Assembly (NCBI RefSeq): GCF_038396675.1 | Contig: NC_088931.1 | Span: 36,663,501-36,727,500 of the forward strand | DNA length: 64,000 nt | Direction: 5' to 3' | Source: Hydra vulgaris | Taxonomy: Eukaryota; Cnidaria; Hydrozoa; Anthoathecata; Hydridae | Shown here: positions 5,578 to 60,138 of the stretch, in pieces | Numbering within the stretch: position 1 is the stretch's first letter | Layout: each line of letters opens with the position of its first letter | Program-made: the position numbers and the translations under genes | Notes under the pieces: model-generated | What the model was told of the DNA's origin: nothing | Seen by the model: only the letters and a program-made list of their open reading frames with translations | Databases searched by the model: none

Positions 5578-5723
5578 TCAAAAATATTGACTAGTTTGTT
5601 ATGTTTGAGTGCCAAAAGACAAAAAAAAAAAAAAATTGACAATTTTTTTTTTTTGACAATTTTTTAAATTATGGGTTTTGGTCATCAAAAGCATAGACAA
5701 ACTATTTTTTACTATTTTCTCAT

Positions 5724-6830
<1,107 letters not shown>

Positions 6831-6839
6831 TAATAATAA

Positions 6840-7240
6840 TATATGGTGCTGTGGCATTTAAATACCAGAACCTAACCTATATATGTTAGGCTTTAACAGC
6901 TTTAAATTTATCCAAATTTTTTTTGAAAACATTGGTTCCTTATGCATTAATAGTTTTTTTGAGGGAGGTTGTTCCACCTGTTTATTATTTGTTGGGTAAA
7001 AATGTTGTATCTTGCTATGTATATATATATACAGTGGCATGATTTCCAGGCTGATTTCCCCCAAACTCCAATACTTAATAATTCAATGTCTTTATTAGCA
7101 AGCAACCTCTTCTTAATTGACTCTTTTTTATATAAAAAAACATTTAGATCAGTAGCAGGAATAATGCAACTTTCCAGATACATGTCACACTTTTAGAGAT
7201 CCAAACTCAACTCTGATTATTCTTGGAAAGTATTACACCA
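6840..7240 (-). pseudogene. 3' end of a CR1-like LINE reverse transcriptase
   Basis: On the minus strand the translation contains IFTQQIINRWNNLPQK. This matches the F..RV...WN.LP motif near the C-terminus of CR1/Jockey-type LINE reverse transcriptases. It is followed by a degenerate tail resembling the usual FKN.LD segment. The 3' end runs into a TATTATTAT tail and the adjoining TA tract. The rest of the protein is absent or shifted. This is a 5'-truncated dead copy. Confidence 0.55.
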
Positions 7241-11343: not shown

Positions 11344-12936
11344 CAGGCTTGGTTGGGAAGCGGGAGCGATTGCTCTCGATTACTGACCACAGAAATAATA
11401 TTTAGTTGCAAAAAACTGGCCAGGTTTTGTAATCGTTTTGAGAACATTTAAGTTTATGTATGTCCGTAAAACAAAAATTTTTTGTTTTCGGACATACATG
11501 GGAACATACATAAACGTGAATGTTCTCAAAACATCTTGGTGCGAATAAAAGAATATTCGCGAACACTAAAAACCTGCCAAATCTATGAACAAACTAATTC
11601 TATTGATTCAAAAAATACGCTGACGAAGCGAAATAAAGTACTAGAGTTTTCTGTTGAATTGTTATAAAAAAATGCATTATTTGAAATTTGTTGAGTTTTG
11701 ATATCTCTAGCGTAAATTGCTTTAAGAATATACTATCAAACGAGCTATTACTTTAATACTATGGCTCATTCTCAGAGCCACATCTGCAAAGCCATAAATC
11801 TTTTAAACTAATATTATTTGTTTACAAAAATAAATGTTTTAAATATATATTTTTAAATTGTTAATGTTTTGAAAGTTTATTATGTATTATTGATTTTTAT
11901 TAGTATATTCTTATTTTTTATTTACAAAGTATATATTTTTTATGTAAATGTAATTTTGTGTATCTGTTTTTTATTCTTATGTAATCTTTTAAAGCAATTT
12001 TTACAATTTATTTTGTAAGCAAAAAGACTTTCAACAATGTTTGCGTTTCAAATTTTCAAATTGTTAATAATCATCGAAGTTAATAAAACTAATTATGAAA
12101 TAATGAAGTTTCTGGTTACTAAACACAAATATGCATACAAAGTAACTTGTGCTATATATATATTTAGAAAGTTATTAAATATAAAGAAAAGTTTTTAAGT
12201 TCTTTGATATGTTTACTAGCTCTAAATATTTTTGCTTCAGTTGCCATTCTTACAAACTCGTTATACTTAAACTTAAAGTTACTTTTTTCTGTTTTAAATA
12301 CTAATTAAAATTAAAAAGCCCACTCACTAAACATCAGCAATATTGTGAATCATATTAAAATAAATTTTTAACCTTTTTAGTTGGGGCCGGCGGCTATTTT
12401 TATATTGGAGGCCTTTTTATGTGCCACAGCATAAAAATGATAAAAAAAAAGTCTTCTTGACTATTTTGAGGCCCCTAATATTGCGGGGCCCTGGGCTGAA
12501 GCCCCCTTTGAACTCCAACCCTCCTTAATTCAGCACTGGAAATAAGACACGAGTATATAAATAAAAATTATATTAAACTCTTTAATAAATAAAAGAACAA
12601 ATGTTTCCTTATCAAGCAATCGTAAGATGTTACTTTAATAAAAAAAATTTGGCTTAATTTTATAAAAGTTTTTAAAAAGACGATGTTTCGAAAATATTTG
12701 TTCTAAACGTAATTTTAATTTTTTTTCGCATAAGAAGTTATTTTCTTTTTCTAGCTTTTTTTTCTTCTTGTAGTTGTATCTCATCAGTCCAATTAATTTT
12801 TTTTTGAAAACTTTTTTTTTTTGTTTTTTGAAATGTTCCCAAAAGGACTAAAAAATCTGGCCAGTTTTTTGCAACTAAATATTATTCCTGTGTTCAGTTA
12901 TCGAGAGCGATCGTTCCCGATTCCCGACAAAGCCTG
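11344..12936. mobile_element. 1.6-kb TIR element inserted in the LINE
   Basis: The ends at 11344-11428 and 12853-12936 are inverted repeats of about 85 bp. They include a near-identical block AAATATTATT(C/T)CTGTG and the sequence GCAAAAAACTGGCCAG. Outside both ends the LINE protein resumes (endonuclease to the right, the linker LSRCSKFAYNKGDYNAFN to the left), so this is an insertion. A further inner inverted repeat (GAACATTTAAGTTTATGTATGTCC and its complement) lies at about 11440-11535. No transposase is recognised. The target duplication is unclear. Confidence 0.65.
12384..12538 (-). mobile_element. Fragment of a hAT-like element end
   Basis: Reading leftwards from 12538, the sequence starts CAGTGCTGAATTAAGG and is strikingly GC-rich (GGGGGCTTCAGCCCAGGGCC) against its AT-rich host. 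CAG-type termini with a GC-rich subterminal region are common in hAT non-autonomous elements. The opposite end and target duplication were not found, so this is an end fragment nested inside the 11344-12936 element. Confidence 0.4.
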
Positions 12937-12939
12937 CTG

Positions 12940-13540
12940 ATACTGCCAGGACAAAGTGCAGTGACCTTGGTTTGGTTACATGTTGATAGAGGTGAAGTTC
13001 AAAAATAATATTAGCAAATTTGGCGTCCAAACTGGTTTCACCGCCTGTTGTATTCAACCAACTTTTGTTCCATTTGATGTTTGCAAAGTTGAAATCCCCA
13101 GTAATAATAAGGCCTTGGAAATTTTTGTTTTCAATTAGAGATTTTGAATATAAAATGGATCTAGCAATTTTATTGAAGTCTGATACACTACTAGTTGGTG
13201 GGCGATAAATACATTCTATAAGAGATAATACATCCTATAAGAGATTCTTTATTTAATATAAGTTCAAGCCAGAGTTGTTCTGAATGTTTAATTCCTTTTT
13301 GCAATTTATATTTTGTGCATTCATGTATGCTATAATAACTTTTTATATATATTGCGATAGCACCACCGTGAGTAGATCGATTTTTTCTATAAATGTTGTA
13401 ATTAGGAAAAAAAGGTGCTGAAAATTCATTAAATCAAGTTTCTGTAATAAAAAATAAGTAGCAGCTAGAAAAAGCTCTTGGAGTTTTTGGTGGTTTAATG
13501 AGTTTTTAGTGGTTCAATGAGCATTGGTGTAAAAACAGTT
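12940..13540 (-). pseudogene. LINE apurinic/apyrimidinic endonuclease domain (broken)
   Basis: The minus-strand translation carries THGGAIAIYIK, SYRMYLSPTNS and GLIITGDFNFANIKW, then HVTKP. The TGDFN..W motif is the typical metal-binding/catalytic block of the endonuclease/exonuclease/phosphatase fold in LINEs, which nicks target DNA. The domain is cut after HVTKP by the inserted element at 11344-12936. Confidence 0.7.
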
Positions 13541-14550: not shown

Positions 14551-14612
14551 CATATATAAATATAATATATATTATAAATATATATAATATATATATATAT
14601 ATAATATATATA

Positions 14613-14710
<98 letters not shown>

Positions 14711-14897
14711 TCATATATAATTATAATATGTATTTTATATACATATCAAAATTTGAGAATGTTTTTTGTTTTTTTTTACGTTTTTTATGGCAAATATTGT
14801 TTTTTCGCTAAAAAATGCAGTTTTTCTGCTATATTTCTCTGGGACGAGGGGTACTGCTGCCCAAATTTTTTTTGTAGAATAGGCCCTGATAATTATG

Positions 14898-14985
<88 letters not shown>
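14551..14985. repeat. (TA)n tracts flanking a short unique segment
   Basis: TA-rich DNA at about 14551-14708 (pure from about 14620) and a second tract at 14897-14985. The sequence ATGGTCATATATAA occurs on both sides of the first tract. The 170-bp spacer has no recognisable feature. Confidence 0.9.
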
Positions 14986-14987
<2 letters not shown>

Positions 14988-15309
14988 CTAAGTCTGTAGT
15001 GTTCAGAAGCTCTAAACATGTTTGTTGACTTATGATCTACTATAAGAAAAAAATTCATGAGATTTAATGCCTTGAAACTTATTGTTTTTAAGCCCAGAGT
15101 CCTGGAGTCCTGAAGTCCTTGCTGCCATTATACTTAAGGACTCCGGGCTCAAAAAATGATTGTTCCTCCAACCTAAAAGTCTTAATTTTTTTCTTATTAG
15201 TAGTTCATAAACTTATTTATATTTTTAGAGCTCCTGGATACCAAAAACCAGGATAAAGTAATCTTTTTGTGACTTTCAAATCCGGAGTCCTTTTTGGGAC
15301 TCCGCATCC

Positions 15310-15312
<3 letters not shown>
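14986..15312. mobile_element. hAT-type MITE, left end missing
   Basis: This matches the complete element at 22039-22412 over nearly its whole length: AAGTCTGTAGTG, then GAAGCTCTAAACATG, then the GGACTCCGGG centre, ending GACTCCGCATCCCTG at 15312. The first 50 or so bases of the family are replaced by a TA tract, and the right end also abuts a TA tract. No coding sequence. Confidence 0.8.
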
Positions 15313-15369
<57 letters not shown>

Positions 15370-15390
15370 CATACATACATACATACGTAT
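15313..15390. repeat. (TA)n then (CATA)n microsatellite
   Basis: A TA tract at 15313-15362 is followed by about six CATA units to about 15387. Confidence 0.95.
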
Positions 15391-15393
15391 ATA

Positions 15394-16188
15394 CAGGTTT
15401 AGCCAGGAAGGTGTGTGGTTTCACGTCATAATATGACCACGCAAATGCTATTTGATTTTACTTAACTTGACCACTGCTGTTAATATGTTTTGAAAATTTG
15501 TATACATTTTAAAAACGCACTAAAAAAATTATCTTAACTTAACTATAAAGACACTTAAAAAAAAACTTATTGTTAAAGAAGCAAATAAATCTTTGTAAAA
15601 AAAATAGTAAAAAACAAAATAAAAATAACTAAGTAATAATAATTAAATTGTTTATTTAAAAAATTGAAATTTTTTAAATAAACAATTTAATTTGTTACTT
15701 TATTTTAATGCGTTTCAATAATATAAAATAGTAAGTAAAGATCAAAGTTATTTAAATCAGGCAGCTTTCAAAAATGTTTTTTTTTCTTCTTAACAAAAAC
15801 TTTAATGGTTCTAATATAAAGTTTATTAGAGACTTTCGCTGTTGAAAGTTGTCACTTATAAAATTTCATTTTTTTTTTTGTTTTAATTTTTATTCTTTTT
15901 TTTAAGATAAAAAAATTAAAAAAAAATCTTATAATTAATAATATAAATAAAAAATTATACAACTTTCAATGATACTTTAATTAAAATCATTAGCTACTTT
16001 ATTTAAAAACATTTTGCTAATATAAAAACATTAGTAAAGATAAACGTGTTGAATTTATTTATTTTCAACATAATCAACAACCAAGTGTTTCAGTGCATTT
16101 GTTAAAAACCGTAGTTAAATCATCAAAACAAAATATTATTTGTGTAGATATAAAGACTTAAATTTGCACACCTTCCTAGCCAAGTCTG
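15394..16188. mobile_element. 795-bp TA-flanked non-autonomous element
   Basis: The left end CAGGTTTAGCCAGGAAGGTG and the right end, read inwards, CAGACTTGGCTAGGAAGGTG form imperfect terminal inverted repeats of about 25 bp. TA dinucleotides flank both (15392-15393 and 16189-16190). CAG ends plus TA duplication suggest the Tc1/mariner superfamily. The interior is AT-rich without coding signal. It includes a strong palindrome at about 15645-15692 (AAATTGTTTATTTAAAAAATT and its complement). Confidence 0.7.
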
Positions 16189-18142: not shown

Positions 18143-20470
18143 CAAGGCTGCAAGCAACCACTATTAAGTTGGGAGTTACTGGAAAGAAAAAAACGAGTTA
18201 TAGAGCAAGGAAACAGTTGATAGAAGACTTAAAAAGTTGAAGGTTGTATGAGTCAGGAAAACATGATGATAGAAGAGAGTTTCAAAGGTTTGAAGTGCGG
18301 GGAAACTAGATGAATAAAAGTTTTTAGAGCATGCAGGGACATGCAGGGACATTTTAGAGCATACAGGGACGTTTTTAGAGCATGCAGGAAAAGAATGAGA
18401 CTTTGCTAAATGGTGAGTAAAGCAAGAATGATTTTTAGTTGGTGGAACTAGAGATGATAGCTCCTTTTAGCAGCCACCATGATAGTATTTGTAGAAAAGA
18501 AAAAGAGATAAAACTTTATGACGATGGGAAAGAGGCTCAAACTTAGCAGATAGAACAGGACCAACTATGTTTACAAGCGTATTGGGCCTTGTCAAGAAGA
18601 GAAAGAGCATCATTAGAAGAATCACCACAAATATGATAATAGTATTCTATACAGGGACAAGTAAGAGATTTATAGAGGTAGAGAATAGAATCAGAAGTTA
18701 GAAAATTGTGAGCATGATAAAGAGAGGCAACCTTAGCAGATACTAATTTAGCAATCAATTGTATATATGGTTTCCATGAAAGGTCAGAAGACATAAAGAA
18801 GAGAACTCAGTGAGAGGGTTGCCTTTTATTAATATAAGAATGTTGACAGTATTGTGATAGTTGTTTATTCTGTTACAGAAGAGAGATCAGATTCACGATC
18901 GGTGCCTGTTTTAAGCGATCAAAAAAAGAAGACTTTTTGTTAAGACAGGAGTATAAAGTTGAGTCACCAGCAAAAAGAGCTACTTTAGATGTTAGGTTGT
19001 CAGAAAGATCATTAATGTAGATAAAAAAAAAAACAGGACCATAGATAGAGCCTTGCTAATAAGAGAAAGAAGACTGATTGAACAATAATTGGAGGGATAA
19101 GAATGTTCACCGGAGTTTTTAAAAATTGGAGCAACAGATGCCATTTTCCAGCAGGCTGGAAGAACAAGTTTCAGTTAAGTACTTATAAAATAGTTTAGAG
19201 AGAATTAAAGAGAGTTCTGGAGAACAATTTTGTAAGACTATGACAGGAATGTTGTCTGAAACACAAGCCGCAGAAGAGCTTAACCAAGATTGAGTTTGGC
19301 GATGGAAGCTGGAGTGATTTGAATGTCTAACAATGGGTTAATCTGTTTAATTGGAATGGATGGAAGAGAATGACCATAAGATTCAAGGCTTGAATTAAAA
19401 GAAAAGCACTTTGTAAAAAGTTCTATCCTTGGGAGAGGTAATAAGATCAGTCTCAAGAATGAAAGATGGAATGTTAGACCTACATTTGTTAATGACGCTG
19501 TTGAAGATTTTCCAAAAGTTAAGTTTCGAGATAAAATACAAGATTTAGTGAATTGAGAATAATGGAGCTTAGCATCTGACAGCTCATTTTAACATCGATT
19601 TCTTACAATAATAAATAGCCGTTTGTCCTCGAAAGTTGTTCTCTTGAAAAAGATGAAAAAAATGATCACGATTAAATATAGCAGCTGCACAAGAGGGTGA
19701 AAACCATGGAGTAGAATGAGGCTTGACTTTGGAACTAACAAGATGGAATAAAAGCTTCTATTCCTGTCTGAATCCAGGTTACATAAAAAGCATATTTCTC
19801 AGCTGAAAGAGAAAGGACATCAGCCCAAGCACCGTCACAAAGAAAGTTGCGAGAATAATCCCATTCAGCTTTAGGGTAGTAGTAAGTAGTGCAATGATAG
19901 GGTGAGTCTGAAAAGGAAGTAGGAGATAAAAGATTTAAAGATATTGCAATGTCAGAACCACCTAAAAAAGAAAAAGGAAAAATTGACCACAAGCTAGGTG
20001 CAGAGACAAGACATAAATCAAGGAGTGAAGGTAAGTGATTAGGGAAAATGAGTCACAAAGTTAGCTATCTAAGAAAGAGATTGAGAAATGCAGAAGTTAT
20101 AGGCTTTAGTTTCATCATGGTCAGTGGCGTTAGAGCCAAGCCATTCAGTGTGATAAATATTAAAGTCACCAAAAACAACAACATTGGCAGAGGGGTAAAG
20201 AGAGAGGGCATGGTCAATTTGATCAGAAGTTACATCTAAAAGAGTGTTGTCTTGGGAAGAAGGAGAACGATAAAAAACAAAGAGGAAGGTGATAGAGTGA
20301 TAGGTCGCTAAGCAGAAGCACATAAAAGTATGGTCAAAGGATTTGAACCTGATTTCACGAAAAACTGGTGAATTGATTTGTCTGTATACCCCCAAGTCAA
20401 TCGTGTGACTATTGGAGTCTTTGTGAATCAAATGATAGTACCCATCAACACTGAGATCAGAAAAAGGAAT
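18143..20470 (-). mobile_element. Second LINE (Jockey-like), 5'-truncated and broken
   Basis: Read on the minus strand, an endonuclease piece (20431-20069) contains VVVFGDFNIYHTEWLGSNAT. It is followed by a linker (19992-19735; SPYHCTTYYYPKAEWDYSRN), basic regions, a heavily eroded RT core near 19.1 kb (APIFKNSGE), and an RT C-terminal piece (18794-18543; SSDLSWKPYIQLIAKLVSAK, then LYKSLTCPCIEYYYHICG). The tail reads KSHSFPACSKNVPVCSK, with a small internal tandem duplication near 18330-18385. Many frame changes occur. Its protein is distinct from the 8.8-14.5 kb LINE. Confidence 0.75.
20069..20431 (-). pseudogene. LINE endonuclease fragment
   Basis: A 120-codon open stretch includes the GDFN...W catalytic/metal-binding block and FRPIDHT-like substrate-fold residues (SFDHTFMCFCLATYHSITFL). 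It belongs to the AP-endonuclease domain of the surrounding LINE. It lacks the N-terminal strands and runs into stops. Confidence 0.7.
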
Positions 20471-22038
20471 AGCAGTTTAAATCAGTCATGACCTCTTAAG
20501 CAATGTGCTATGCAATTTTCTTAGTCCTGTTAATTAATCCTAAGTAAGTAATTTTTCAGCAGTTGATGGAATGAGTCTCTCTATAAACTACCACAGAGTT
20601 CAGGAAACCTTACTACCAGCCGGCTTCAGAACCATTAAACTGAGTTTTAGAGCTGTACTCTCATTAGGAGATAACAGAAAGAGTTGCATAGCTACTATCA
20701 AGGAGGTTCATTGTTAAAGAGGACATTCCTGTCTCTTTTAATATTATAATTTTAAAATTACAATTGCTGGCAGAACTCCACATTTAAAGAGAATCATATC
20801 ACGGAGTTCACTTTGCTGGCAATCAATGTCACTTTATGCTAAATGATGGGGATCCAGCAAACAGCAGAAAAAAGTTCAGCCTTTCAAATTTTTGGTTTTA
20901 TTAACACATTAAAATTTTCGGCTATTTTTACTTTTTGCTTTTTGTTTTGGCATGACACTGAAGAAAGACTTTGCTGAAAGTTAAAGACTTTGCAGTTCAT
21001 GAATTCTATTTAGCATTACAAAACTGCAGCATCACTCCAAAAGTCCATCTGAATCAGTTTATCATCTCTTCAGTACTCACTAAACAAAGTATCGTTCAGA
21101 ATATGCAGAAAGGCTTCTGAGCTGCCTTGATTAACAGCAAGCAATTGTTTTTAAAAATTTTAATTTTTCTCTGTCAGAATTTTCTACATTAATAGAAAAT
21201 TTTCCTGTTGGAATTTTTTTTATTAAAATATGACTATTATAAATGAAAAAAATGTTGTTTTGTAAGGTATTTTCTTACTTGAAAAATAGAATTTTGAGTG
21301 CTGTAAAAATGCAAATGTTTGAGATGCTGTCATTCTGCTCTTATGTTCAATAAAAAATTAACCAAAAAATTTAAAGCATGAATTATCTATTTTAACATTT
21401 TTAAGTCTAAACCAGTCTATAAATAATAATTAAGTGAATATCTATATAAATAAAAAATATTTTGAAAGTCCAAATTTTCCAATCTAGTACTAAAAGATTA
21501 TTAAGAATTTCTGAAGTTAATATGATATATGCATTTCATTCGAAATGGAATGGAATTTTATTTGCTTGCACCTCAAATCAAATATCTATTTAAACTATTA
21601 TTCTGCATTGTAGGTAATGCTTTTTAAGTTGGTTTTATGTTAATGCGATATGTAGGTAAAATCTTAGAATAAATTCCTGGAACTCTTGATAAAATAAGTT
21701 TCTTGTCAAAAAGTAACTTAATACTAATAGTTTCTTAAGATTTTGTGGTTGTACTAGTTTCTTATGAACAAGTTTTATTTAAAAAAAACTCTGTTTAAGT
21801 TTTGTTTTAATTTCAAGTTTTAGAAAGAAACTTTTAAGTCTAGAGAACCAATAATACATTATAAAAATTAAGGAATCCTAGTCTATTAATATTGTTGTAT
21901 GGTATAATAATATATATTGTTACTATAAAAACAAATTTAACAAATAGAAATTTTAAGATTACAAAAATAAATTTTTAATTATTGTCTGATTCTTACAGGA
22001 AATGGCTCTCAAATGGTAAAAATACTTATGGTAAAAAG
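20471..22038. other. No gene recognised; possible LINE 5' debris then AT-rich DNA
   Basis: 20.47-20.9 kb is somewhat less AT-rich and may be the upstream part of the adjacent LINE, but no protein match is visible. 20.9-22.0 kb is ordinary AT-rich sequence. Confidence 0.3.
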
Positions 22039-24370: not shown

Positions 24371-26028
<1,658 letters not shown>

Positions 26029-26046: not shown

Positions 26047-26249
26047 ATGGTACGCAATATGAATGATTTATCAACGAATTACTGCACCTCAAAAACACTT
26101 TCACTTTCAAATGCAGATGAGAAAAATTGTAAAATCTATTCATTAGAAAGCGAAAAATCTAATAAACCTAGTGTTCGTGTTGGTATTCCTGCTTTGTTTA
26201 CTTTGCAAAGAAGCATTGATGAAGATACAATGCATGAGTTTCCTGATAG
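26047..26249 (+). CDS. shroom: Shroom gene, first identified coding exon
   Basis: Encodes residues 1-67 plus two bases, starting MVRNMNDL and including VRVGIPALFTLQRSIDEDT. The donor TGATAG|GTTAGA ends in phase 2. Without this splice the frame stops within 7 codons. An AG acceptor at 26028-26029 lies just upstream of the ATG and could take a cis exon or a spliced leader. Confidence 0.6.
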
Positions 26250-29200
26250 GTTAGATCTTTGTTCGATGTGATTTTCTTAGCTTTTCAAATAACCATTTTA
26301 AATTTAAGCTCATTGTTTTATGTGCCTTTGCCTATTATTAAACTGTTACAAACTTAACTGCTATCATCAAGTTAGGCTTAAAATTGAAATTAATTGATTA
26401 AATTTGTAAAATGTAAATCTTGAAATCTAGTTGGAAGTCGTTTGGAAATTATTCCTTACAATGCAGTCGTAGAATTATTAAAAAAAAATTACAGATCTGT
26501 ACTGCTTTTTAAAGTAAAAATAAATTTTTGAGTTGAAAAAAAGTATATAATAGAATTATGGTTATTATTATTAAACTTTAAAAGTATTTTTAAAATAGTA
26601 ATCAGCCTATTGTGTTGAAAGTTGTACTTACTGAGCTACTGTGGAAATCTTATTTTTGATTTTTGATTTTTTTATCATATTATTTTTATGAAAACTTTGA
26701 AATAAAAGTTTTTATTTTTATTTTTTGGCTGTATTAGAAAAATGAAAAAGCTAATCAGTTTTTACTTTTACACTTTGAACACAATATGAATTAGACTCAT
26801 CATAATAACATCTAGATATTAAAACAAAAAACCCAGCTTAAGCATTGAAATTCATAAACAGGATGCATATGGATAATTTTGTTTATGTAAAACAAACATA
26901 AACAAAATATCGAAAAACACGTATTTAATTTTTTTAAAGTATTTTTTTTTATCATTGTTTATAATCAAAAGTAAATAAAGTTAAGCACCCAAGACTAAGA
27001 TTTTTATTTCTTATCAAGTAAATCAAAATAAACCAAACCAAGGCTCAGGTTTTTATTTTCTATCTAATATAAAATATACTAAACAAGCAAGTGAGAACTT
27101 AAGCTCATAAAAATAAACTTTATACTAACAATAAATAATAATTTTAACAATAAACAAACATAAGCTCTTTTTTTAAGAGAAATTATAATCCAAACAAAGA
27201 ATGCTAATAACTTTTTCATTGTTTTGTAACCTACTATTAACTTAAGGAAAGCATAGTTATTTACTATTTAAATATTTTTTATAAATATTCAAATGTGAAG
27301 TTTTTATCAGATGACAACTTAAAATCTGACTTATTAGATATACTTTAAATATAAGAAAATTTCAAAGTTGACATTATTTAGAGCATGGTTCCTATTGTTT
27401 ATTAATAAGATATATGTACTCAAAAGCATATATTTTGTCAAATATGGGTTTTTAATAACAAAATAATGAAATTTAAAGAAAAAAGTTTTTAATGACACAA
27501 AATTTACTAAACGACAAGATATATTTGAAAATGTAAAGTTATTTTAATGCTTCTTTAAACCACAACTTTGGTATCTCGACTCAATAATCATAATCACAGT
27601 TCCCAATGTGGATATCCAACATATTCTTTTGAAGATGTGAAAATATTTGGTTTGTAACACCAAATTTAGATTTTTCTAAAAAAACTAATCATCCCATTTA
27701 TAAGGTGTTCTAGGTGAGATATCTTACAAGAGAAAAGCTGTAAATAGTTTGACATGTTGTTTGTTTCAAGACCTTTCTCAGATAAGTTTATGGCCACAAC
27801 CGCCATTAAGAATGAATAGTTCGGCAAAGGAGTGAAGGACTTTGTTATAAATGCGTTTAAGTTTTCCTATGACATATTTGTAATAGTTTTGACTATATTA
27901 TTAAAGCATAGCAAATAAAGTTCATTAATATTAACTTTATGTTGGCAAGAACCTCTATGAAAGATAAGATTATAATCTGTAATAGCAACATGTTATTTTT
28001 GTACATACAAGTTACATACAAATACAAAGGTCTTTTGAGCATTTGATTTTTCTTATGTGTTATCAGTAATATAGAAACACATTCACATTCATTCTTAAAA
28101 GACAACCATCTTTTAAGCGCATTGGATACTTATTACCATTTACGAAATAAAATAACTTTTAATTATATTTAAAATAGAATCATACTTGGAAGTTCTTTGT
28201 ATTGAACAGAATTACCTTTACCATTCAAAGTATAAGTAATTTTGCGGCAAAGTTTTTTCTTCCAGTAAATTACTGAAAAATAGATGTCTTAAATTTAAAA
28301 AAAATTAATTTTTATTATTTTTTTTTTTTTGCATTGTCAGACATTTTTGTTTCATAGCGTTGTCACTTATCTATTCAAACTCTTATGAGGTTAATGTTAT
28401 TCCAAAGGTTTTTAAAAGTGTTTATTTGATAATTGAATAAGTTAGTGAGTTAGATTTGATAAGTTTGAATAAATTGTGTGAAAAAATCAATTCATGAGAT
28501 ACTTTTAACATTTTTGTTTTTCTCTTTTATATTAATTCATTCAATTTAATTCATTCATTTTATTTTTACTAAAATACAAACAAAATAAAGTTGTATTAGA
28601 AAACAATTTTTTTCTTACTTTTAACCCAAAATTAAATATTTAAATATATTCAAGATTTATAAATTTTCTATATAAATAAAGATTGCTTTAGCATATTTAA
28701 AAGAAATTATAAATTTTTTAAAAACTTATAAACACAGTATTATTGTGGTTTTTTAAATAAGAAAAGACACAAGTGTACAACAAAATTACTTTAATAAGTT
28801 TAAAAAAACTCAAATACATTTTTTTTTTAATTTGCATGTTTTTGTTTGATTTATTTCCCTATTTTTAGATATAGTTTTGATGGAACTTCTATGACTTTTA
28901 TGCAAAAAACAATTTTTGTTTAATTAAACTTCTTACTAAAACCGTTATTCAAAAACACATACTCAAAAAAAGTACTTTACAACACTATTCTTTAATTGTT
29001 TTCTATATAATAAAATAAAACCTAATTTTAAAACAGTTATCAATATAAAAAGAAAAGATGTCTGTTAGTTCTTACATTTCTACATAATTTCCACTTCCAG
29101 ACAGGTTTTCATTTTTTTAAATATTGTTGACACATTACATAAGCAAGGAGGCTTTTTGGAAAAAAATATTTAACAGCTTATTTAAATTGTTATTTTATAA

Positions 29201-32200
29201 TTTAGATCACAAATAGGGTTGTGAAGTATAATTCATTATTTCCTTTATAATATATTCAAATTATTATATTCATCATAGTAGTTAGCCCACAGAATTTTTT
29301 ATACTTTTTAAAAAGAACTTGTGTGAGTCTATTAAAAAGATTTTTTATTTGTTTTATCAAAAAAAACATACAAAGATATGTTAAAATTATTGTTACAAAA
29401 GAATATTCTATTACTGTAAATAACAAATTTTTGTAACTATTTAGTTTAAATATTTTTTAGAAAGTTTCAAAAATATAGAAAATAAATGGTATGTCACAAA
29501 TGATGTATTCTTATGTACATAAAGTGTGTGCATGCATGTGTGTGTGTGAGTGTAAGTCTGTTAACAGTCACATTTTAGCAGTTGGACATATTTATGCCTG
29601 GGTGCTAAAATTTGATTATATTTTTCAAAAGACTGGAATATAATCCTGTCCATAATAATTTTTTTTTGGTCATGTTAAGTATCATAAAGTTTATTATAAG
29701 ATAACTTTGATCTGTGAGTCATAACAACAAATACTAAACTATTTCACTGAACATACAGATGCACAAGGACCAATAAATTGAATTGTAAGTTAATTTTATT
29801 TGAAATTTTTTATATAGAGATGAGCAAGAATGATGTGTGATTGCACAACAGAGTGAAGTGCATTGCAGATACAGGAAAAATCTGTTCTAGCATAAGTAAA
29901 ATTAAATTGTCTCATTGTCTCGCACAAAAGAGTTAAATCTTTCTACAGTTTTTGATTAAATACTAGTATAAAAATGATTTCACTTTCTTTCTTGATTCAT
30001 GTGTTAACTTCAGATTAGTAATTATTACTATGTAAATATCCTTGATGTAAAAACTTTTCAAAATATATTTGATTTAATAAGAGTTATACTTTAAGTAAAG
30101 AAACCATTTACAAAAGGATTTAAAAATTTAAATAAATAAATTCTATTGAGCTAGTAGTGTTAAGCAAGGTTTTTGCAATATTTTGAGCAGTTAATTTTAA
30201 AAGATTAGAGATAAACTTTCATTAGTTTGTTAATTTTAGCCAATTATCTTCCAGTCGTAGCAGGTTAAACAGCACTGAAAATAGAGAAGTTATTGAAGTT
30301 GGATCTATAAAAAAAGTATCAGATGCAAAGGCAATGTTTGAAAACATGTCTGTTGAACTTAAACATAGAGGAAATACCCCAAAGCATATTGCAAAAGCAT
30401 TGTAAGTTTAATTTATATTTTTTATTTATTATATTAATTTATTTTTTCTTTTTTTTTTTAACTAAATTTTAGCTGAGTTACTTTACAAAATTATAAAATT
30501 TATTTCCACACTCACAAAAAAAAAAAATTATATTAAGTATATTATAACATTAAAAAAAAAAAAAACTTTTTCAGTAAAATTCTCATTTCTCTCAATTCAC
30601 TCAAATTCTCATCCGATTTGTGTTGTTAAATATTACTTTCACATTAGCAATAAACATGATCTAAAATCAAAATGGTTGATTTTTTAAAAATAGAGCTTTA
30701 GAACTCTGACCGCTAGGCTCCTAGTCTGCAACATCCCATCTCTTTTAAGTTTTAAGGCTAATATTGCCTCTTTTAAAATAAAATACTTTTGACATCTTAA
30801 TTTTTAATTTTTCACAACTTTTTTACAAAAGTAGTTATGAAGTTGTTATATGCATCAAATTGTACTTATAGTCATATCACCTGCATGTCTTTACAAGCAT
30901 CTAATCATCCATTTTATGATATACATGTCTTAACCACTTTAATAATTTTTGATGAACTCTACAATATCCTAACTCACTATTTTTAATCTATGCATAAGTT
31001 TATCATTCGTTTTTTTGTTTTTGACATTGCCTTATATCTATCTAATAACAGATTATAAGGTATTGATAATTAGACGGAATTATGCTTTAAAAAATTAGGA
31101 TAGTGAGTAACTCTATCAAACTAATCAAATGAATATAACCTTAGTGATACAGTAATAATGACCGGTTTGAAACGTATTTCTCTATTTTTAAAGATTTATT
31201 TCTAAAAATAAATGATGAAAATGTTACTAACTAAAAATCAATAAAATTCAAAATAATAATTTTTATAATTTAAAAATTGATAAAATTCAAAAAAAGTAAT
31301 TGTTATAATTATAAAAATCGATAAGATTAATTAAGTATATAAAATTAATAATTTGATACTTATTTAGTTTTATTATTTTTTAAAACAAAAAAATTAAGTC
31401 TTAATTAAGATAACTATAGATAGAATTAGCATATATTAGATAAATGAAGAAAATCTTTTGTTTTCTTTTGTTGTTTTTTTTTCAAATTAGTTCTTATTTA
31501 ATTTTAACCACAAAATAAATAATTTTCACTTCCTATATTAAAGCAAACATAACACTGTTAATTTTGATTTTAGAAATTTAAACACCAATGAAAAAAATTT
31601 TAATAAGGTGGTTAGCAAAAACTCAATCGAAGATGGAATGCCAATGCATGCAAAAACTAGATCATTACCTGTAGATGTTATGACAAAAGATTTGCACAAC
31701 TATGCAGGTACAACTTTGAATTATAAGAATAATCGCTTATATAAAGATTCTGTTTCGGATATTCAAAAATCAGCATATTTTGATGAGAAAGATGATCAAG
31801 AAGATGTATCTAATTGTACGGATATTAATAAGTCGTATGATAACAACAAATCGTATCATTATAAAACTACTGGGAATAACAACCAACTTGATCAGCAATT
31901 GTTTCCTAGTTATTCAACTGATGATGTTAGATACGATCAAAAAGATAAGTGCAAAACTACTATAAAAAATGATCCAGCTGATGAGTTGAGGCAGGCTGCT
32001 AACAGATACCATCAAGAACTTATCAAAAACTACCCAAAATTTAGACATTCAATTTTCTTAAATGACAATGCATCAAAAATGTCACGGAAGGTTTCTAATC
32101 AACCAGAAAATACATTTAATAGGGGAGAACCAACTCGAGCAACTATTGCATCAACAAGCTCAAACTTTAAAGCACTCTCTAAATCAGTTAGTAATTCTTC

Positions 32201-35200
32201 TGAATTATGTGATATGAATAATTTAATGCTTAGTAATAATTCTATAATGCTTAGCAACAATTCTATAATGGGTAGGTTATTAAATGATGAAAGTCAAGGA
32301 GCTTCTGTATATAAAATTGACGGAGCAAACACAAGGACATTTTCAAACAGTTCTAGAGAGGACACTCCTCTTGTTCAATCAAATCGTATATTAACACAAG
32401 CACCTAAAGCACAAGAACCTAAAGTCATTCAAATTAAAGATACAGATGATTGTAGTCAAGTTATTGATGAAAAAACAACTTCAGAACTGTAAGTTTTTTT
32501 GTTGTTGTTTTATTTCATTTTGTTGTCTTAGATTGTTTTATAAACATTTTAAAACTACAAATTATTTTTTTTTATTTTTTTTTATAAAGATATAGTAATC
32601 TATTATTATATGCAAGCATTATACGACTCAATACATACGAAAAATATTGAAAACTTTGAATAAACTGTTATGTACATTTAATTGTGAATAATTACTTATT
32701 AACCTCAAGTATTTGGTATTATACATTAGCTTTTGTTTTTTTTATTAACTTATATAAATAAACTATGAAATAATCTTGTGAAAAAAAACACACGCAGCAA
32801 CAACAAGCATCAGTTGTCACACTTCAGCGTCAATTAGTCGCACTTCAGTTAATATTAAATCCTAACTTTGTAAATAAAAATATTACAATAAATAAAAAAT
32901 TAAAACAAAAAACAAACATTAAAATATCTTTAATTAATAGTAATATTAGTGTATGGTTTCATAAATTTTTGGCTTCTTTTTGTCGTGTTTGAATTGTTTC
33001 TTTTTTACTTTTAATGGTTAAAAAAAAGAAAATTCCAGTCATGAAATATACACAATTTCTGTCATGAAATATACTAAGTTTTGATGATGAAATATACTAA
33101 ATTCCGGTTGCTAAATTAAACAGTTCTTTTATAGCAACACTTAAATAAAGATAAATTTAAAAAACTTTACAAAATAAATCAGTTTGTAAAAAAATATTTT
33201 TTGCTCCTTCAAAACATCTTAGAAAAAAAACTTGTTTCTATGAAGTTTTGATTTTTTTTGTCTCTATGACGTTCAGAGATTCAAAAATTATTGACTTGAG
33301 TAAATTAATTTAGAGTCTCTGGTTGCAATAACACATAAAGATTTATGATTCAAAAAAGATAGTTTCTAGGAAACAATGCTGCACAAGAAAAATATGAAAT
33401 ATTTTAAAGAATTCAAATAGAATATACATATAAATATAAATGGAAGTGATCAATTAAAAAAATATGGCTAGTAAGCAACACCATATAAAAATTGTTGATA
33501 GCTTTCCATTAGTACTTTTGTTTTGTAATGTTAGCCTTGGAACGCTTTAAAGAAACCAATATTAAAGAAGACTTAAAGAAAAGAAAAAAAGAATATGGTT
33601 TGCCATTAAAATATTTGTAGCAAAAAGCAAGCCTCAAAGAAATTTTGTATTAAAAATTAAATTTCATTAAACAAATTTTTATTGTTAATTTTTCGGTTTC
33701 AAATTCAACTACTTAATAATCCATTTTTGCTCAATAAAAAATTTAATTAATTTTTTGAGTTAAATATAAAAAAAATAAGTCTATATCTTGTTTAATATTG
33801 ATGCATTTCAAATTATATGTTTTATATGCAATCTAAACTTATCACTTTCTCTGTTAATATTACAACATTTAAACTGTAACTTACTCTGTAACTTTGAATC
33901 ATTAATTTTGTTAACAATCATAAATGAAACATCCGAGTCAAAAATAAAACATGCTTAGATTATTTTGTATAAAGATTATATTCAAAGTATATATTCAATA
34001 TATTCAATATATATTTTGTAATTATATTATTATTATTGTTAATTATAAATCTTTGTACATGATAAAGCACCTAATATTATGTACAATAAAAATATATATT
34101 TATATATTTTTTATATACACAGTGTGTCCTAAAAATAACCGAACTTCATATTTAAATCATATAACATGCAGCGCCATCCATTGATAATTTGCAGCATGAA
34201 AAAGATACTTTTATCCTCTTTTAAATGCACCTACATTCATGTAAATCGGATGACAGATGTGAAAGTTACAGCCATTTCAATAAAAGAAAAACGCGTCCTA
34301 ATCTTACAAAACCAAAATGGAACAAAGAGCGAATATAAAATTTTGTGTTGAACTTGAAAAAAAATTTGCTGAGACATACGAATTGATGAAAAAAGTTTAT
34401 GGTGATGATTGTATGAGTCGTACTCAAGTTTATACGTGGTTTAAAAATAGTCAAGAGGATTTAAATGACGATCTGAGGTCAGGTTGTCCAGAAGCTAGTA
34501 ATCATGCTGAATTGGTGGAAAAAGTCTGTGAAATCATTGGTATCAATGCAAATTTTACTACGAGAATGTTGGCTGAGGAATTAAATACAAGTAAAAACAC
34601 TATTTGGAGAATTTTAACTCAAGATTTAGGTAAAAGCAAGATATGTGCGCGTTTGCACATGAATTAAATGAAGACCAATAAATCACTCTTGTGGAGCATT
34701 GCAAAGACATTGAAACTGTTGAAAACGATCCAGACTTTCTTGATTCGATCATAACTGGTGATGAGTCATGGTGGTTTAAATATGACCTTGAAACTAAGTG
34801 TCAATCTGCTGAATGGAAGTCCAAAGGCAAGCCAAAACCAAAGAAATTGCGTTTCCAGAAGTCTCGAATCAAGACAATGTTGATTACTTTTTATGATTCA
34901 AAAGGTTTTGTCCACAAGGAATTTGCTCCAGAAGGTTGAGCTGTTAATGGAGAATACTATTTAGGCGTTTTAGATCGTTTGTGGAAAAGAATTTGTCGTG
35001 TTAGACCTGAATATCCAGCAGGAAAGCAACTGTTTTTATTGCACGACAATGCACCGCCTCACAAGACCAAAAAAGTGAACGAATTTTTGATGAAAAAACG
35101 GATTTCTCTCATCAGCCACCCTCCATATTCGCCTGATCTATCATCATGTGACTACTTTCTATTTCCAAAACTGAAAACCAAGATGAAAGGAGCATTTTAT

Positions 35201-36127
35201 GATGATATCCCAGCCATTCAAGCAGCTGTAACCGAGATGCTGAAGAACATTCCTATAAATGACATAAAAAAATCTATGCATGCGCTGGTTGATTGTGCCA
35301 AATGTTGTATTGAGTCTTATGGAACCTATTTTGAATAAATAATAACTTTCAATGATGATATAATATGTGTTTTATTTTATATCCAAAAAGTTCGGTTATT
35401 TTTGGGACACACCATGTAAATACTTGTGCAAATGTTATCAGTGTCCATCCTGTTTCCATAAATAATAAGATGCTTACATTACAACATTGTTAAAAGTCCA
35501 CCTGAGAAACCAAAATGAAAACAAAAATATAAAAGACGAAAGTTTCAAATTAAGAAAAAATCAAAAGTATAATTGCAGGATTAATGCTTAATGAATTTTA
35601 AAAATTGAGGATTGGTATAAACCAAAATAAAAGATAAAATAAATTAATAATAAGATTAAAAATTTTTTTTTTTAGTTTAATTTAATTTTTTTTTATCTTA
35701 TTACTTATGTTCTGGTTAATTCAACTTTATTATAAGTGACAGTAATCTTGTTTTTTGCATTTATTTTCCTGGATAATGTTAATTGTGTGTTAATGTTTGC
35801 TACGTTTTTCTTTTGCTTTTATTATTATTGATATGTGTTTTTATAAGTAGAAAATTATCCATAAAAAATTGGCTAGAAATATTTTGTGAAATTGTTAAAT
35901 ATAATAGTAATGAAAAAGCAAGAATAAATAAATTAGAAATCAAAATCTTTTTGGTTATATAAAAAAAAACCTATCAGGTCTATTTTTGTCTGTTGTGATT
36001 CTTATTATAAGAAGTTTTCCTTGAACTCTTAGTTATAGTCTAAAAGGTAAGGCTTTCAAGGTTTATACTTTTTGTATGCTTTCCTAATTTTTTGACTAAA
36101 TTAGCAATTTTTACTGTAAATGTGTAT

Positions 36128-36215
<88 letters not shown>

Positions 36216-39200
36216 TTTTTGAAGATTGAATAGTGCAAAAAGTGATATTTGATAATTTTTGCATGCGGGGATTTAATATTTAAAGTTTTAACGTTGTTTA
36301 ACATTTTTTTTGGAAACGGTACGGCAATGTAATGCAATTTTATTTAATAATACTTACTTAAATTAAACTTTTATTATTAAAGTATTTTGATTATACTACT
36401 AGAAATGTCAGATAGGGCTAAGTTGGGTTGTACTGGACAAATAGGACCTAACTTTTATAGCCAAAAAGCTTGGGTGAATGGAAAATTATTTACTAAACTG
36501 TGAGACAAGAAACTGATTTTTAATAGCAAAATTTATTATGAAACGTTCTAATATGGCACGTTATATACCTTCTTATGATGCCAATGTGTTAAGATTTGTT
36601 TTGCAGCATTTTAATATATCAAAACATAAATAATGCCAAAAATATTTAACATAAAGATACTAAAATTAAACATTTAAAATATAATGTCGTGTATATTATT
36701 TACTATTGTGTGTAAAATATTGTCGTGTAAAGCCATGTTTCTTTTTTACACATATTTTTACACAAAACTCAATAAACATTTTCTCAAAAATACTATCAAA
36801 AATATCTTTTTTTTGAGACTTTATAAGTTGTTTCTAAATTGATATCTAAATCTTTCAATCAACTTATTTATACCTCTTTATTATAGATTAGAGTACTGAT
36901 AAATTACAGTTTTAAATAACAGTCAACAAGCTAACTTGAAAGTAATATATAAATTTTTTTTTGAACTTTTTACTGAACCGTTCGTCCATTTTACTAAATT
37001 GTACGCATTTGATTTTACTGAACTGTCCGATTTTCCTGAATTGAACGCCCGGTTTTACTTACCGTTTTAGGAAAAAATAGAATATATTAAAATCTTACAT
37101 GATTTATTTAAACATTGCTTTGAATGAATGATTAAAGCATAAATTACTGAGATACTTGTATTGTTATTTTTTTTTAAATTTTTTTTTCTTTTCCCTTTCT
37201 AATTATTAAGTGAAGCAAATTAATTATTATCCATGGCGCTATTAACGATAAATTTATTTCCATAGTTATTTAATTATATAATAAGCAACTCGGTTTAAAT
37301 AATATAAGTAACGACTTTGCAACATTATTTAACAAATTATTTCGAAGAAGAAAAAAAGATGTTTGAACACTGTTAGATATAAATAAAAATAATTTGCAAT
37401 ACGAACTTAAAATATTTTATAAACCGATTTTAAAAAGAAAACAATATATATTACTTTAAGATATTTTAAGCCAATTTACAAAACTAAATTTACCATTGTA
37501 TGTATATATAGCTGTTGGTTTATGACAACTTGTTTTTTTTCTAGCTATACTAAATAGTATTTTGAAAGGAAGTGATGGAATTTTTAACTTTTATTTCCGT
37601 GTAGCAAACGCGTTGTGTTGAGTTTATTTTTATAAGTATTCATGCAAATATTTTAACCGTTTAGCGCTACTAACGACACTTTCATGAATCGACTTGATAG
37701 CATAACTTCTATAGCTGATTCGACCAAATCAAGCCAATATGAAGGCAACCAAGGTCTTTATTTTCGTTCAAATTCGCCAGCTTGTAGCCAGAATCTTGTT
37801 TCAACAAATGTTTACCCAATACCCAACGCGTTATATAGGCATGTAGAAACTGATATAGACTCACCAGAGGCTGAAGCTTTAATTCATCAAAGAGCCTTAA
37901 GTAGTGACAGTGCTGTTTACTTGAGCGAGAATCAACATAAATGTGACTTAAATAACCAATATACAAGTATGAGTGATTTAGATATAGTCTCTTTAAAGCA
38001 CTCTGCTCAAAATGATTCTGACGATATAAATTTGTTACCGCCTCCTCCAGACGATTTTTTATGTGATGAAATTACGAATGAAACAAATATAGAAAGAGAA
38101 AAACCACAGCGCACAATTAATCGTAAAAAGAATAACTATTATGGTTTAAATAGCCGAAATAACTCTTGCGTAAGCACAGACTCGACTACAAGCACTGGTA
38201 CAGCAGATTCGGGTATTGGGGTTCGATCTGACAATAGCCCTAGTCCAATATCTAACGATGAGTATTTTTTAAATAAACCTTTATATGGATCACAAGAATG
38301 TCTTGATGATGATGTTGCTGAGTTAGATATTATGCCTCACTCTGCGTCTACTCCAGACCATCGCACAGACAATTACACATATACTGATGAAACGGACTTT
38401 AATGAGAGAAATTGTTCCTATAACAAAACAGAGAGTACAGAGTGTTTAGCCAGTGGTAAGAAGGTAAATGATTTGGACGGCGAAAAGGTAAGACGTTTTT
38501 ATCGCAATATTTTATAAATTAGGCTATTTATAAAATTACGAACGTAATTTGTTTTTTTCTTTCATGTTTACGTGCGTTGAAATATAGTCATATTTAAGAC
38601 ATATTTGACATTTTAAACATAGTTGATACTATAAAAAATAAACTTTAGACACATTTTAGACATTTCAAAAAAGTTTCACGAACTTTTTAAACGTAAATAT
38701 TTTTCATGTGAATTTATAGAAATAGTAATATAAATCTCTATATGATTCTACTTAAATGATTTTAATACAAATTCAAATTAAATTTAGAGTAAATTAATAG
38801 AAAGCATGCGCGAAAAAATCAACGAGTTACGACTGCAAGAGCAAGAGATTACGGATGAAATTCGTGTCAATGATAACTTAGGAAAGATGGTGCTTAATAT
38901 GGTAGAATCAAAAGCCACTCAAAGCGAATTTTCGAAATTCGAATTGTTTATAGGTGAACTTAATAAAATAGTTGCTCTTCTTCTTTCGCTAACCCAAAGA
39001 TTGCATAGATACGAGTTAATGCTACAAGAGCTTGACATGTCAAACGAAGAAGATAAATTGAAAAAGGTGAATGCTTTTTTTGATAGTCATAGAATAAAAA
39101 GTTTGCGTTTAAATTTCAATCAGTAATGTTAGTTAGACATATATTTGATATTATAGATTAATAATGTAAAATAATTTTTTAACCTGTTATAAGCCTGATA

Positions 39201-39495
39201 GGTTTCAATTAATGATTTTTAGGAGGGTTTAATCTCAAAAATTGCAAAGCTACAAAGTCAGTTGGAAGAAGCTTGTTATTTAAAAGATGTTAACAATAAA
39301 CGTGGCGATAATGTCGCGCTATTTCTTGAAAAATATTGCACCGACGATGAAATATCGGATTACCAATATTATATTGACATGAAATCGCAGCTTGCTTTAA
39401 TGCAATCTGAAATTCGCGAAAAAGTTAAATTAGGAGAAGAACGTTTATCAGCGCTAGAACGAACCGGTTCCGAATGGGAATTCAATTGTCAGTAA
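26047..39495 (+). CDS. shroom: Shroom-family actin/Rho-kinase scaffold protein (six exons, 879 aa)
   Basis: The coding exons are 26047-26249, 30255-30401, 31574-32488, 37665-38487, 38788-39066 and 39223-39495. All introns are GT-AG and all phases agree (2,2,2,0,0). The last two exons (residues about 697-870) form an ASD2 domain with FELFIGELNKIVALLLSLTQ, YCTDDEISDYQYYIDMKSQL and KLGEERLSALE. In other animals ASD2 is a coiled-coil dimer that binds Rho kinase and recruits it to apical junctions, driving myosin contraction and epithelial bending. The rest is low-complexity, S/N/D-rich and probably disordered, with LPPPPDDF at residues 546-553. The ATG at 26047 is the first usable one after an AG at 26028-26029. 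The frame stays open back to that acceptor, so an upstream coding exon is possible. No PDZ or ASD1 domain was recognised. The ASD2 call is strong; the exon joins are predicted. Confidence 0.88.
26250..30254 (+). other. Shroom intron 1, with unrecognised coding-like debris
   Basis: Mostly AT-rich. On the minus strand, about 28150-27560, non-overlapping frames look coding (for example FTPLPNYSFLMAVVAINLSE and MRLKDGCLLRMNVNVF) but are broken by stops. They probably derive from an old element that I cannot name. A short GT-rich tract lies at 29523-29550. Confidence 0.4.
30255..30401 (+). CDS. shroom: Shroom gene, exon 2
   Basis: The acceptor CTTCCAG|TCG and donor GCATT|GTAAGT are strong. The 147 bp encode residues 68-116, including VSDAKAMFENMSVELKHRGN. 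An alternative acceptor 15 bp upstream leads at once to a stop, which supports this start. Phase 2 in and phase 2 out. Confidence 0.75.
31574..32488 (+). CDS. shroom: Shroom gene, exon 3
   Basis: A 915-bp exon (residues 117-421) with acceptor TTTTAG|AAAT and donor GAACT|GTAAGT. It is hydrophilic and rich in S, N, D and K, with no known domain. It holds a tandem heptad duplication LSNNSIM at residues 336-349, from a 21-bp repeat. DPADELRQAANRYHQELIKN may form a short helix. Confidence 0.8.
34118..35416 (+). mobile_element. 1.3-kb mariner (DD34D) in Shroom intron 3
   Basis: Terminal inverted repeats of 28 bp with 3 mismatches (CACAGTGTGTCCTAAAAATA and CATGGTGTGTCCCAAAAATA read inwards) are flanked by TA at 34116-34117 and 35417-35418. 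The length is typical for mariner. It lies in the same orientation as the host gene. The transposase is broken, so the element is not autonomous. Confidence 0.95.
34317..35338 (+). pseudogene. Mariner transposase (frameshifted)
   Basis: The N-terminal helix-turn-helix part (34317-34667) includes QVYTWFKNSQEDLNDDLRSG. The catalytic part carries ITGDESWW, LLHDNAPPH and LSSCDYF, with 34 residues between the second and third Asp (DD34D). Defects are a frameshift near 34650 where the linker should be, TAA at 34679-34681 and TGA at 34937-34939. All three catalytic aspartates survive. Confidence 0.95.
36967..37066. repeat. Degenerate minisatellite, about 4-5 units of 18-27 bp
   Basis: Units begin TTTTACTGAACCG, TTTTACTAAATTG, TTTTACTGAACTG, TTTTCCTGAATTG and TTTTACTTACCG, each usually followed by a CG-containing block. 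It lies about 600 bp before Shroom exon 4. Confidence 0.6.
37665..38487 (+). CDS. shroom: Shroom gene, exon 4
   Basis: Acceptor GTTTAG|CGC and donor AAAAG|GTAAGA. Encodes residues 422-696. It is serine/threonine-rich with a polyproline stretch LLPPPPDDFL around residue 546 (a class I EVH1-ligand pattern with trailing acids) and a TDSTTSTGTADSGIG-like serine/glycine tract. Intron 3 before it is 5.2 kb and contains a mariner. Confidence 0.8.
38788..39066 (+). CDS. shroom: Shroom gene, exon 5 (ASD2, first half)
   Basis: Encodes residues 697-789 (SKLIESMREKINELRLQEQ onward), a continuous heptad-pattern helix. IRVNDNLGKMVLNMVESK and FELFIGELNKIVALLLSLTQ align with the conserved core of vertebrate and fly ASD2. 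The donor is AAAAAG|GTGAAT. Reading through it adds about 19 residues and a stop, so splicing is favoured. Confidence 0.92.
39223..39495 (+). CDS. shroom: Shroom gene, exon 6 (ASD2, second half, stop)
   Basis: The acceptor TTTTTAG|GAG is in phase 0. Encodes residues 790-879 with the second ASD2 helix: VALFLEKYCTDDEISDYQYY, IDMKSQLALM and EKVKLGEERLSALE. The stop TAA is at 39493-39495. The protein ends soon after ASD2, as in the family. Confidence 0.92.
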   Translation, partial: EGLISKIAKLQSQLEEACYLKDVNNKRGDNVALFLEKYCTDDEISDYQYYIDMKSQLALMQSEIREKVKLGEERLSALERTGSEWEFNCQ

Positions 39496-42258: not shown

Positions 42259-43565
42259 CAGGGTGACCACAAAGTATCCGCACAGATAAAGAGCTTAATA
42301 AAAAGCATGTAGAAATTATTTAGAACACAAATTTTATTTTAAAACATTTATTGAACTATAACAATTATGATTCAAAGATTGAATTCGAATTTTCCTCCAT
42401 CAGCAAAATAACAGGCCTGTAGGCGTCTCGGGAATGCTTCGACGGTGGCGAGCAAGTAGGCAGGGTCCAGAGAATCCCAAGCTTTCAGTAGTGATTTTTT
42501 TAAACTTTCAATATTTTTATGCGGCTTTTGGCATGCCTTTCCTTCTTGGACGCTCCAGACTGAGAAATCCATCGGGTTAAGATCGGGGCTCGATGGCGGC
42601 CATTGAGAAAAGTTGATAAAATCAGGAAAAGTTGCCGCACAAAAATCCTGAACTGTCTTCTTTTTATGGGCTGGAGCTCCATCTTGCATGAACGTCCAAA
42701 TACGATTTCCAAGTTCTTTTTGAGCCTAAGGAACAATTTCTTTCTTGAGCATATCCAAATAATTGTCACCGTTGACCTTTATACCTTGTGGAACAAATAT
42801 GAGCGGTGTCTTAACATGAGCCGTTATCCCGGCGAATACCATAACTGAAGCAGGATGAGAACTGCGTGAAACCGAGACATTTGGTTGAGATTTTGCCCAA
42901 ACTCGATCGTTCTGCTTATTAAGAATGCTTTCCACTGTAAAAATCTTTTCGTCAGTGAACAAGATGTTGCGATAATCAATTCCGTTGAAACGGTGCAGAA
43001 GTCCAAGAGAACGGTCTTTACGTTTGACTTTAGCTGCTTGAGAAAGAAGTTGCGACTTGTTCTTCTTGTATGGTTTGAGCTTAGGCTTCTTTTTGATTAT
43101 CTTTGCCATTGAAGTTCGTTTTATCCCCATTTTCTTTGCGAGACCTCGAGCAGATTGATTGGGGTTCAAACGCAGGCGATCGCGTACCTTTTTCACATTG
43201 CTCGCAGTGATCACTGTTCGAGGTCTTCCGGATTTTGGATGATTAGAACTTGTTCCCAACTCGTCAAAGCGTTTAATTGTGTCGTAAATTGTCCGTCTTG
43301 GCGCATGTAAACGGTTCTGAATGTAGCTCGCTGAGTAGCCTTTTTTGTGAAACTCGATGATAGATTGACGATAAGGAGAAACGCGCACCATTCTAAAAAA
43401 ACCAATTGAACATAGTTTACAAAGTATATAAAGTAAAGTATATAAAGTTTATGACATAATATTAACCAAAAACAACAAATAAATAAGAAAATACATAAGT
43501 GCTTTTATGCTTATATTTTCACAAGATGAAACCGTCTCGTGTGCGGATACTTTGTGGTCACCCTG
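42259..43565 (-). mobile_element. Nearly intact 1.3-kb DD37D element (maT-like, Tc1/mariner)
   Basis: The terminal inverted repeats are perfect for 26 bp (CAGGGTGACCACAAAGTATC...) and flanked by TA at 42257-42258 and 43566-43567. One transposase gene fills the interior on the minus strand, broken by a single stop. The perfect ends and near-whole frame point to recent activity. Confidence 0.95.
42372..43391 (-). pseudogene. DD37D transposase with one premature stop (339 codons)
   Basis: Begins MVRVSPYRQSIIEFHKKGYS. Two helix-turn-helix regions flank a GRPR motif (KSGRPRTVI). The catalytic residues are D in ILFTDEKIF, D in MQDGAPAHKK and D in DLNPMDFSVW, with 37 residues between the last two. 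The frame is continuous from ATG to the stop at 42372 except for TAG at 42726-42728, in EIVP*AQKELG, probably a former CAG. DD37D is typical of maT-type elements. No frameshift was found. Confidence 0.93.
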
Positions 43566-59500: not shown

Positions 59501-59864
59501 TGTAACAACATGCTCTTAGAACCAGACCAAATAAATCAACTATGAACGGCAACCGGAAATATTTTCTAAATATTGTTTTAATTCAGCACTTTAGAGCTAT
59601 TTTAGTGAAAATTCCTTAAATTTCCTTAAATTTTTCCTTTTTTTAAAATTAAAATTTTAGAATTAAAAGTAGATAAACTATAGAAAAGTAAAGTATTACG
59701 ACAAATTTTTTTTTTATAAAAATGAAATATTTCTAGTTAAAATGAATTATGAAAATTTGCACAAAAAAAAAATTGTCTTCAATATTTACGCAATTTATAC
59801 ATGGTTAACAAGATGTTTAGGAATTTTATATGTTGTTTGTTATATACTTTAAGAAAATTATTGT

Positions 59865-60138
59865 ATGATGGAAAATACAGATGATAATAGCAAGTTTAAT
59901 GTAGATTTAAACAAAAAACGTTCAGATTATCTGTCATGGGAAGACTATTTCATGGCGATTGCATTTCTTTCAGCTCAACGAAGCAAAGATCCAGTGACAC
60001 AAGTTGGGGCTTGCATTGTTAACAATGAAAATAAAATTGTTGGGATTGGATATAACGGTATGCCAATTGGTTGCAGTGATGAGGTCTTACCATGGTCAAG
60101 AATTGGAGAAAGTTTTATGGAAACAAAATATGCTTATG
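59865..60138 (+). CDS. DCTD: dCMP deaminase, exon 1
   Basis: Starts [15 protein letters not shown] and ends at KYAY plus one base. The donor TATG|GTACTT gives phase 1. Joining restores [12 protein letters not shown], as expected for the family. Reading through would give a stop 16 codons on. AG at 59851-59852 just upstream of the ATG could be a leader acceptor. Confidence 0.93.

Follow-up and report, generated by a model that had tools for sequence, protein, structure and literature searches.

In bilaterians, the ASD2 (SD2) of Shroom recruits Rho kinase (ROCK) for apical constriction, and in Hydra the buds and tentacles are formed through the bending of epithelial sheets. In the nomenclature paper of the Shroom family, ASD2 is the common denominator of the members, Apx has no PDZ and KIAA1202/Shroom4 has no obvious ASD1 (PMC1481537), so neither PDZ nor ASD1 is needed for membership. 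On the Shroom side of the interface, an arginine in the SLSGRLA patch of SD2 is described as required for Rock binding, its loss abolishing the binding, and the available portion of the same paper states that it is present in all SD2 motifs identified (PMC4163662). On the ROCK side, Shroom binding is reported to require the residues QYF and KTQ; according to the same paper, C. elegans and sponges, in which no Shroom is discernible, do not conserve LYKTQ (PMC3857177). The Shroom-Rock module is called conserved in most animals in the accessible parts of these two papers (PMC3857177, PMC4163662). A 2014 survey of 26 species including Hydra and Nematostella lists SHROOM3, in its available text and without naming a phylum, among 15 families that arose after the divergence of sponges (PMC4265756), and the non-bilaterian origin of Shroom is thus not new in outline. 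The literature searched yielded no publication dealing with Shroom of a cnidarian; RefSeq and UniProt, which lay outside this search, may well annotate such genes. Shroom and ROCK are unmentioned in the accessible portion of a study of actin during the evagination of the Hydra bud (PMC5576072).

The sequence-only reading of a window of Hydra vulgaris DNA (the whole stretch analysed, 64,000 nucleotides, C12:36663501-36727500) had proposed a Shroom-family gene with six exons in agreeing phases. This gene model was borne out, as the six exons between 26047 and 39495 on the + strand encode 884 amino acids plus stop in a single frame throughout, and all five introns are of the GT-AG type with mutually consistent phases of 2, 2, 2, 0 and 0. 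The predicted junctions 30401/31574 and 38487/38788 were canonical and in phase in this sequence-based check. The exons are as follows:

26047..26249, + strand, exon 1: amino acids 1-68, phase 2 at its end; open frame with a GT donor and a proposed ATG
30240..30401, + strand, exon 2: amino acids 68-122; AG/GT borders, in phase
31574..32488, + strand, exon 3: amino acids 122-427; AG/GT borders, in phase; open frame of 316 amino acids without known domain
37665..38487, + strand, exon 4: amino acids 427-701; AG/GT borders, in phase; open frame of 286 amino acids without known domain
38788..39066, + strand, exon 5: amino acids 702-794; first half of ASD2/SD2
39223..39495, + strand, exon 6 including the stop codon: amino acids 795-884; second half of ASD2

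The ATG at 26047, which has an in-frame stop nine codons 5' of it, is the presumed start codon, on which the completeness of the gene at its 5' end would depend.

The spliced protein was matched by Pfam ASD2 with 150.4 bits (E=1.1e-43), well above the cut-off of 26.4 bits, and the two exons also exceeded this cut-off singly, with 71.1 bits for exon 5 (searched as the stretch 38788-39126) and 68.0 bits for exon 6. The ASD2 core occupies amino acids 702-873 of 884, i.e. the C-terminus, within a Pfam envelope of 672-873. The ASD2 that had been read by eye at the end of the gene is therefore confirmed by the HMM search proposed for it, the score lying above and not below the threshold, and the gene belongs to the Shroom family because it carries the family's common denominator as defined in PMC1481537.

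In the search against PDB sequences, only three distinct sequences were found at E<=1, namely two Shroom2 SD2 constructs (E=1.4e-23) and the SD2 of fly Shroom (E=1.3e-18). The protein resembles Shroom2 (PDB 5f4y; 5f5p with Rock1) in its C-terminal SD2, with 62 of 168 aligned residues identical and the Rock-binding arginine present, but differs from it in that PDZ and ASD1 were not found and similarity beyond SD2 was not detectable. With Drosophila Shroom (SD2, PDB 3thf) the identities over the aligned SD2 were 57/163, and between human Shroom2 and fly they were 59/162, so by these counts the Hydra SD2 appears about equally near to human Shroom2 and to fly as these two are to each other. A single-sequence structure model of exon 5 consisted of two long helices (mean pLDDT 86.2). 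The Foldseek search with this model yielded no match at E<=0.001 and adds little, since the top match, 5f5p, stood at E=0.053 amid many unrelated coiled coils.

The family's Rock-binding arginine is present in the Hydra SD2, where the SLSGRLA patch reads SLTQRLH:

38998..39000, + strand: codon of R772, aligned with R1838 of mouse Shroom3 and R1474 of fly Shroom (SLTQRL versus SLSGRL and SLSERL)

On the 5' side of the gene, Pfam gave no match in exons 1-4 (amino acids 1-701). The genome searched comprised 911,502,276 bases in 15 contigs, and the comparison of exons 1-3 with it gave three matches, all within the Shroom gene itself (16 candidates scored). A codon model was trained on exons 3-6, with exons 1 and 2 kept out of the training, and was applied to the + strand, where open stretches between AG and GT, 100-320 bases long, formed a comparison set that includes real coding pieces; exon 1 scored 0.255, a value attained by 0.7% of the 2036 other stretches, and exon 2 scored 0.185, attained by 4.2% of them. 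Codon use in exons 1 and 2 is coding-like.

These results bear on the alternative that the ASD2 exons are those of a real Shroom but the 5' model is wrong, either because exons 1 and 2 come from a different transcript or because more coding exons, possibly of a split PDZ, lie upstream or inside the long introns. Exons 1-4 are without database match, introns 1 and 3 are long (4.0 kb and 5.2 kb), and an AG near 26025 could take an in-frame upstream coding exon, all of which would suit this alternative. However, the phases of the exons all agree, exons 1 and 2 use codons as coding sequence does, no PDZ match was obtained in the three frames of the + strand between 8001 and 38002 (where a PDZ split across exons could escape), and of the 47 PDZ matches found genome-wide, not one fell within 10 Mb of Shroom on contig C12. 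A wrong 5' model is therefore considered rather unlikely. ASD1 had no match in the 884-amino-acid protein at E<=10; the genome search scored 7 candidates, none of them at E<=1, and its control gave a match in one archaeon, below the cut-off.

Because PDZ and ASD1 were not found, attachment of the Hydra protein to actin would probably proceed through short motifs outside SD2, for which a helix in exon 2 and a site in exon 4 are candidates. Exon 2 reads KKVSDAKAMFENM and contains the following:

30316..30342, + strand: VSDAKAMFE, resembling the SFM motif, a candidate F-actin-binding helix; amino acids 94-102, with V at P1, A at P4, F at P8 and E at P9

The actin-filament motif SFM, known in Lifeact, ITPKA and SHROOM3, is described as VxxLxxxFE in a short helix with unstructured flanks; its critical positions are P1 and P8, and P4 is K in SHROOM3 (PMC13364712). 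Hydra exon 2 shares with these V at P1, F at P8 and E at P9, and VSDAKAMFE lies inside the only predicted helix of the exon (residues 25-43, mean pLDDT 71.8), whereas P4, which is L in the consensus and K in SHROOM3, is A in Hydra. The strict pattern VxxLxxxFE is absent from Hydra Shroom, and when the protein was shuffled 20000 times, V......FE turned up in 1268 of the shuffles and looser forms in roughly half. The motif is therefore a weak candidate, too near to chance to be claimed, and may serve as a lead rather than a finding. Exon 2 gave no match to PDB sequences at E<=10.

The site in exon 4 is as follows:

38035..38049, + strand: LPPPP, candidate Ena/VASP EVH1-binding site; amino acids 551-555

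LPPPP has the pattern of an Ena/VASP EVH1-binding site, and it was present in 123 of 20000 shuffles. Drosophila Shroom, in the account available, has no clear Ena/VASP motif (PMC4163662), while Hydra Shroom has this candidate.

A tentative and rather improbable reading of these motifs is that Shroom was ancestrally a scaffold lacking both PDZ and ASD1, which reached actin through a short Lifeact-like motif and an Ena/VASP site and reached ROCK through SD2. If so, PDZ and ASD1 would have been acquired later, or lost in Hydra, and the actin motif of Shroom would predate Bilateria, contrary to a 2026 paper which, in its available portion, reports no motif-positive cnidarian orthologue and places the first SHROOM3 motif in Bilateria (PMC13364712).

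The partner of SD2 was sought in the same genome with Rho_Binding, which gave two loci on the contig of the Shroom gene, at C12:77.078 and 76.987 Mb (5 candidates scored). Two linked ROCK-family genes, here called A and B, lie about 90 kb apart in C12:76.95-77.08 Mb. A comparison with the 50 kb surrounding gene B recovered 11 of the 20 gene A pieces, none of these 11 being the kinase core. Gene A was matched above the cut-offs by kinase (3.3e-14) and Rho_Binding (1.6e-11), and by a PH piece under the cut-off. The Shroom-binding stretch encoded by gene A, QMKELQDQLEAEQYFSTLYKTQVRELKEE, is identical in 27 of 29 residues to ROCK1 of PDB 5f5p and 4l2w, and it belongs to a coiled coil of which the two parts, QMKELQDQLEAEQYFS and TLYKTQVRELKEE, are split by a phase-0 intron; in the coil directly after this stretch, 22 of 49 aligned columns are identical to ROCK1. 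The corresponding stretch of gene B is less conserved than that of gene A (21/29), with QYF and LYKTQ retained. Since R772 and the ROCK stretches are kept, both halves of the Shroom-ROCK interface are, judged by their residues, present in one cnidarian genome.

No second ASD2 was found in this genome, and it is very probable, taking identity and mechanism together, that the gene is the Shroom of Hydra vulgaris, the sole one found, and that it would act by binding ROCK through SD2. Most likely, the SD2 coiled coil would bind ROCK at the conserved stretch of its coiled coil, and by analogy with mouse and fly Shroom, the bound ROCK would be gathered at actin-rich cell borders and would switch on myosin II locally, by which that face of the epithelial cell may be narrowed or stiffened. 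The binding, the activation of myosin and the place of action of Hydra Shroom are all read across from those animals, and the attachment to actin through the candidate motifs of exons 2 and 4 would be the weakest step.

The protein might instead be a Shroom homologue which in Hydra no longer acts through ROCK and has another coiled-coil partner. The argument for the SD2-ROCK interaction in Hydra is drawn from sequence, S, L, R and L of the SLSGRLA patch are kept and not all seven residues, and the conserved ROCK stretch could in part serve another ligand. Against this, the SD2 arginine is retained and the ROCK stretch keeps 27/29 residues, and a ROCK-independent Shroom is regarded as improbable.

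The earlier proposal that the Shroom-ROCK module preceded the cnidarian-bilaterian split is supported, because the ROCK docking stretch is conserved in the genome that carries the Shroom gene, and this known cell-bending switch looks older than that split. A role in epithelial bending, budding or tentacle formation, suggested in the sequence-only reading, would be a candidate function of the gene. In terms of its family, the gene is an ordinary orthologue in an informative position, i.e. a cnidarian in which both sides of the interface are kept and Shroom is pared down. Hydra, whose Shroom has no detectable PDZ or ASD1 and whose genome encodes an almost identical docking stretch in ROCK, would offer a direct test of whether bending of epithelia by Shroom-ROCK contraction is ancestral in animals, and Hydra Shroom bears on the question of which parts of Shroom are ancestral.

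Contamination with bilaterian DNA or a foreign insertion, in favour of which no point was found, is rejected as extremely improbable, as the gene sits within an 87-Mb contig, its surroundings have 27% GC with transposons in and around the gene, and no relative was found in viral or prokaryote collections (47 pattern stretches in viral contigs and 15 in prokaryote genomes, none confirmed as ASD2).

The window as a whole has a GC content of 27.0%, and neither Rfam matches nor tRNAs were found in it. Intron 3 contains a Mariner-like element (34112-35422, + strand) with Mos1-type HTH and DDE matches, an interrupted frame and imperfect inverted ends of 55 nt (76%). A Tc1/IS630-type transposase in two overlapping frames, with HTH and DDE_3 matches, is located at 42372-43448 on the - strand, and fragments of a non-LTR endonuclease-reverse transcriptase are located at 12878-13234 and 20072-20476 on the same strand. 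Tc/mariner DNA transposons and non-LTR fragments agree with the description of Hydra in the available text of PMC7642931. Long TA and CA microsatellites were observed at 5600-6900, 14600-15450 and 36118-36217. In addition, a dCMP/cytidine deaminase gene with two or more exons is present at 59853-60526 on the + strand, where PF00383 matched at 9.4e-9 and 5.5e-12.
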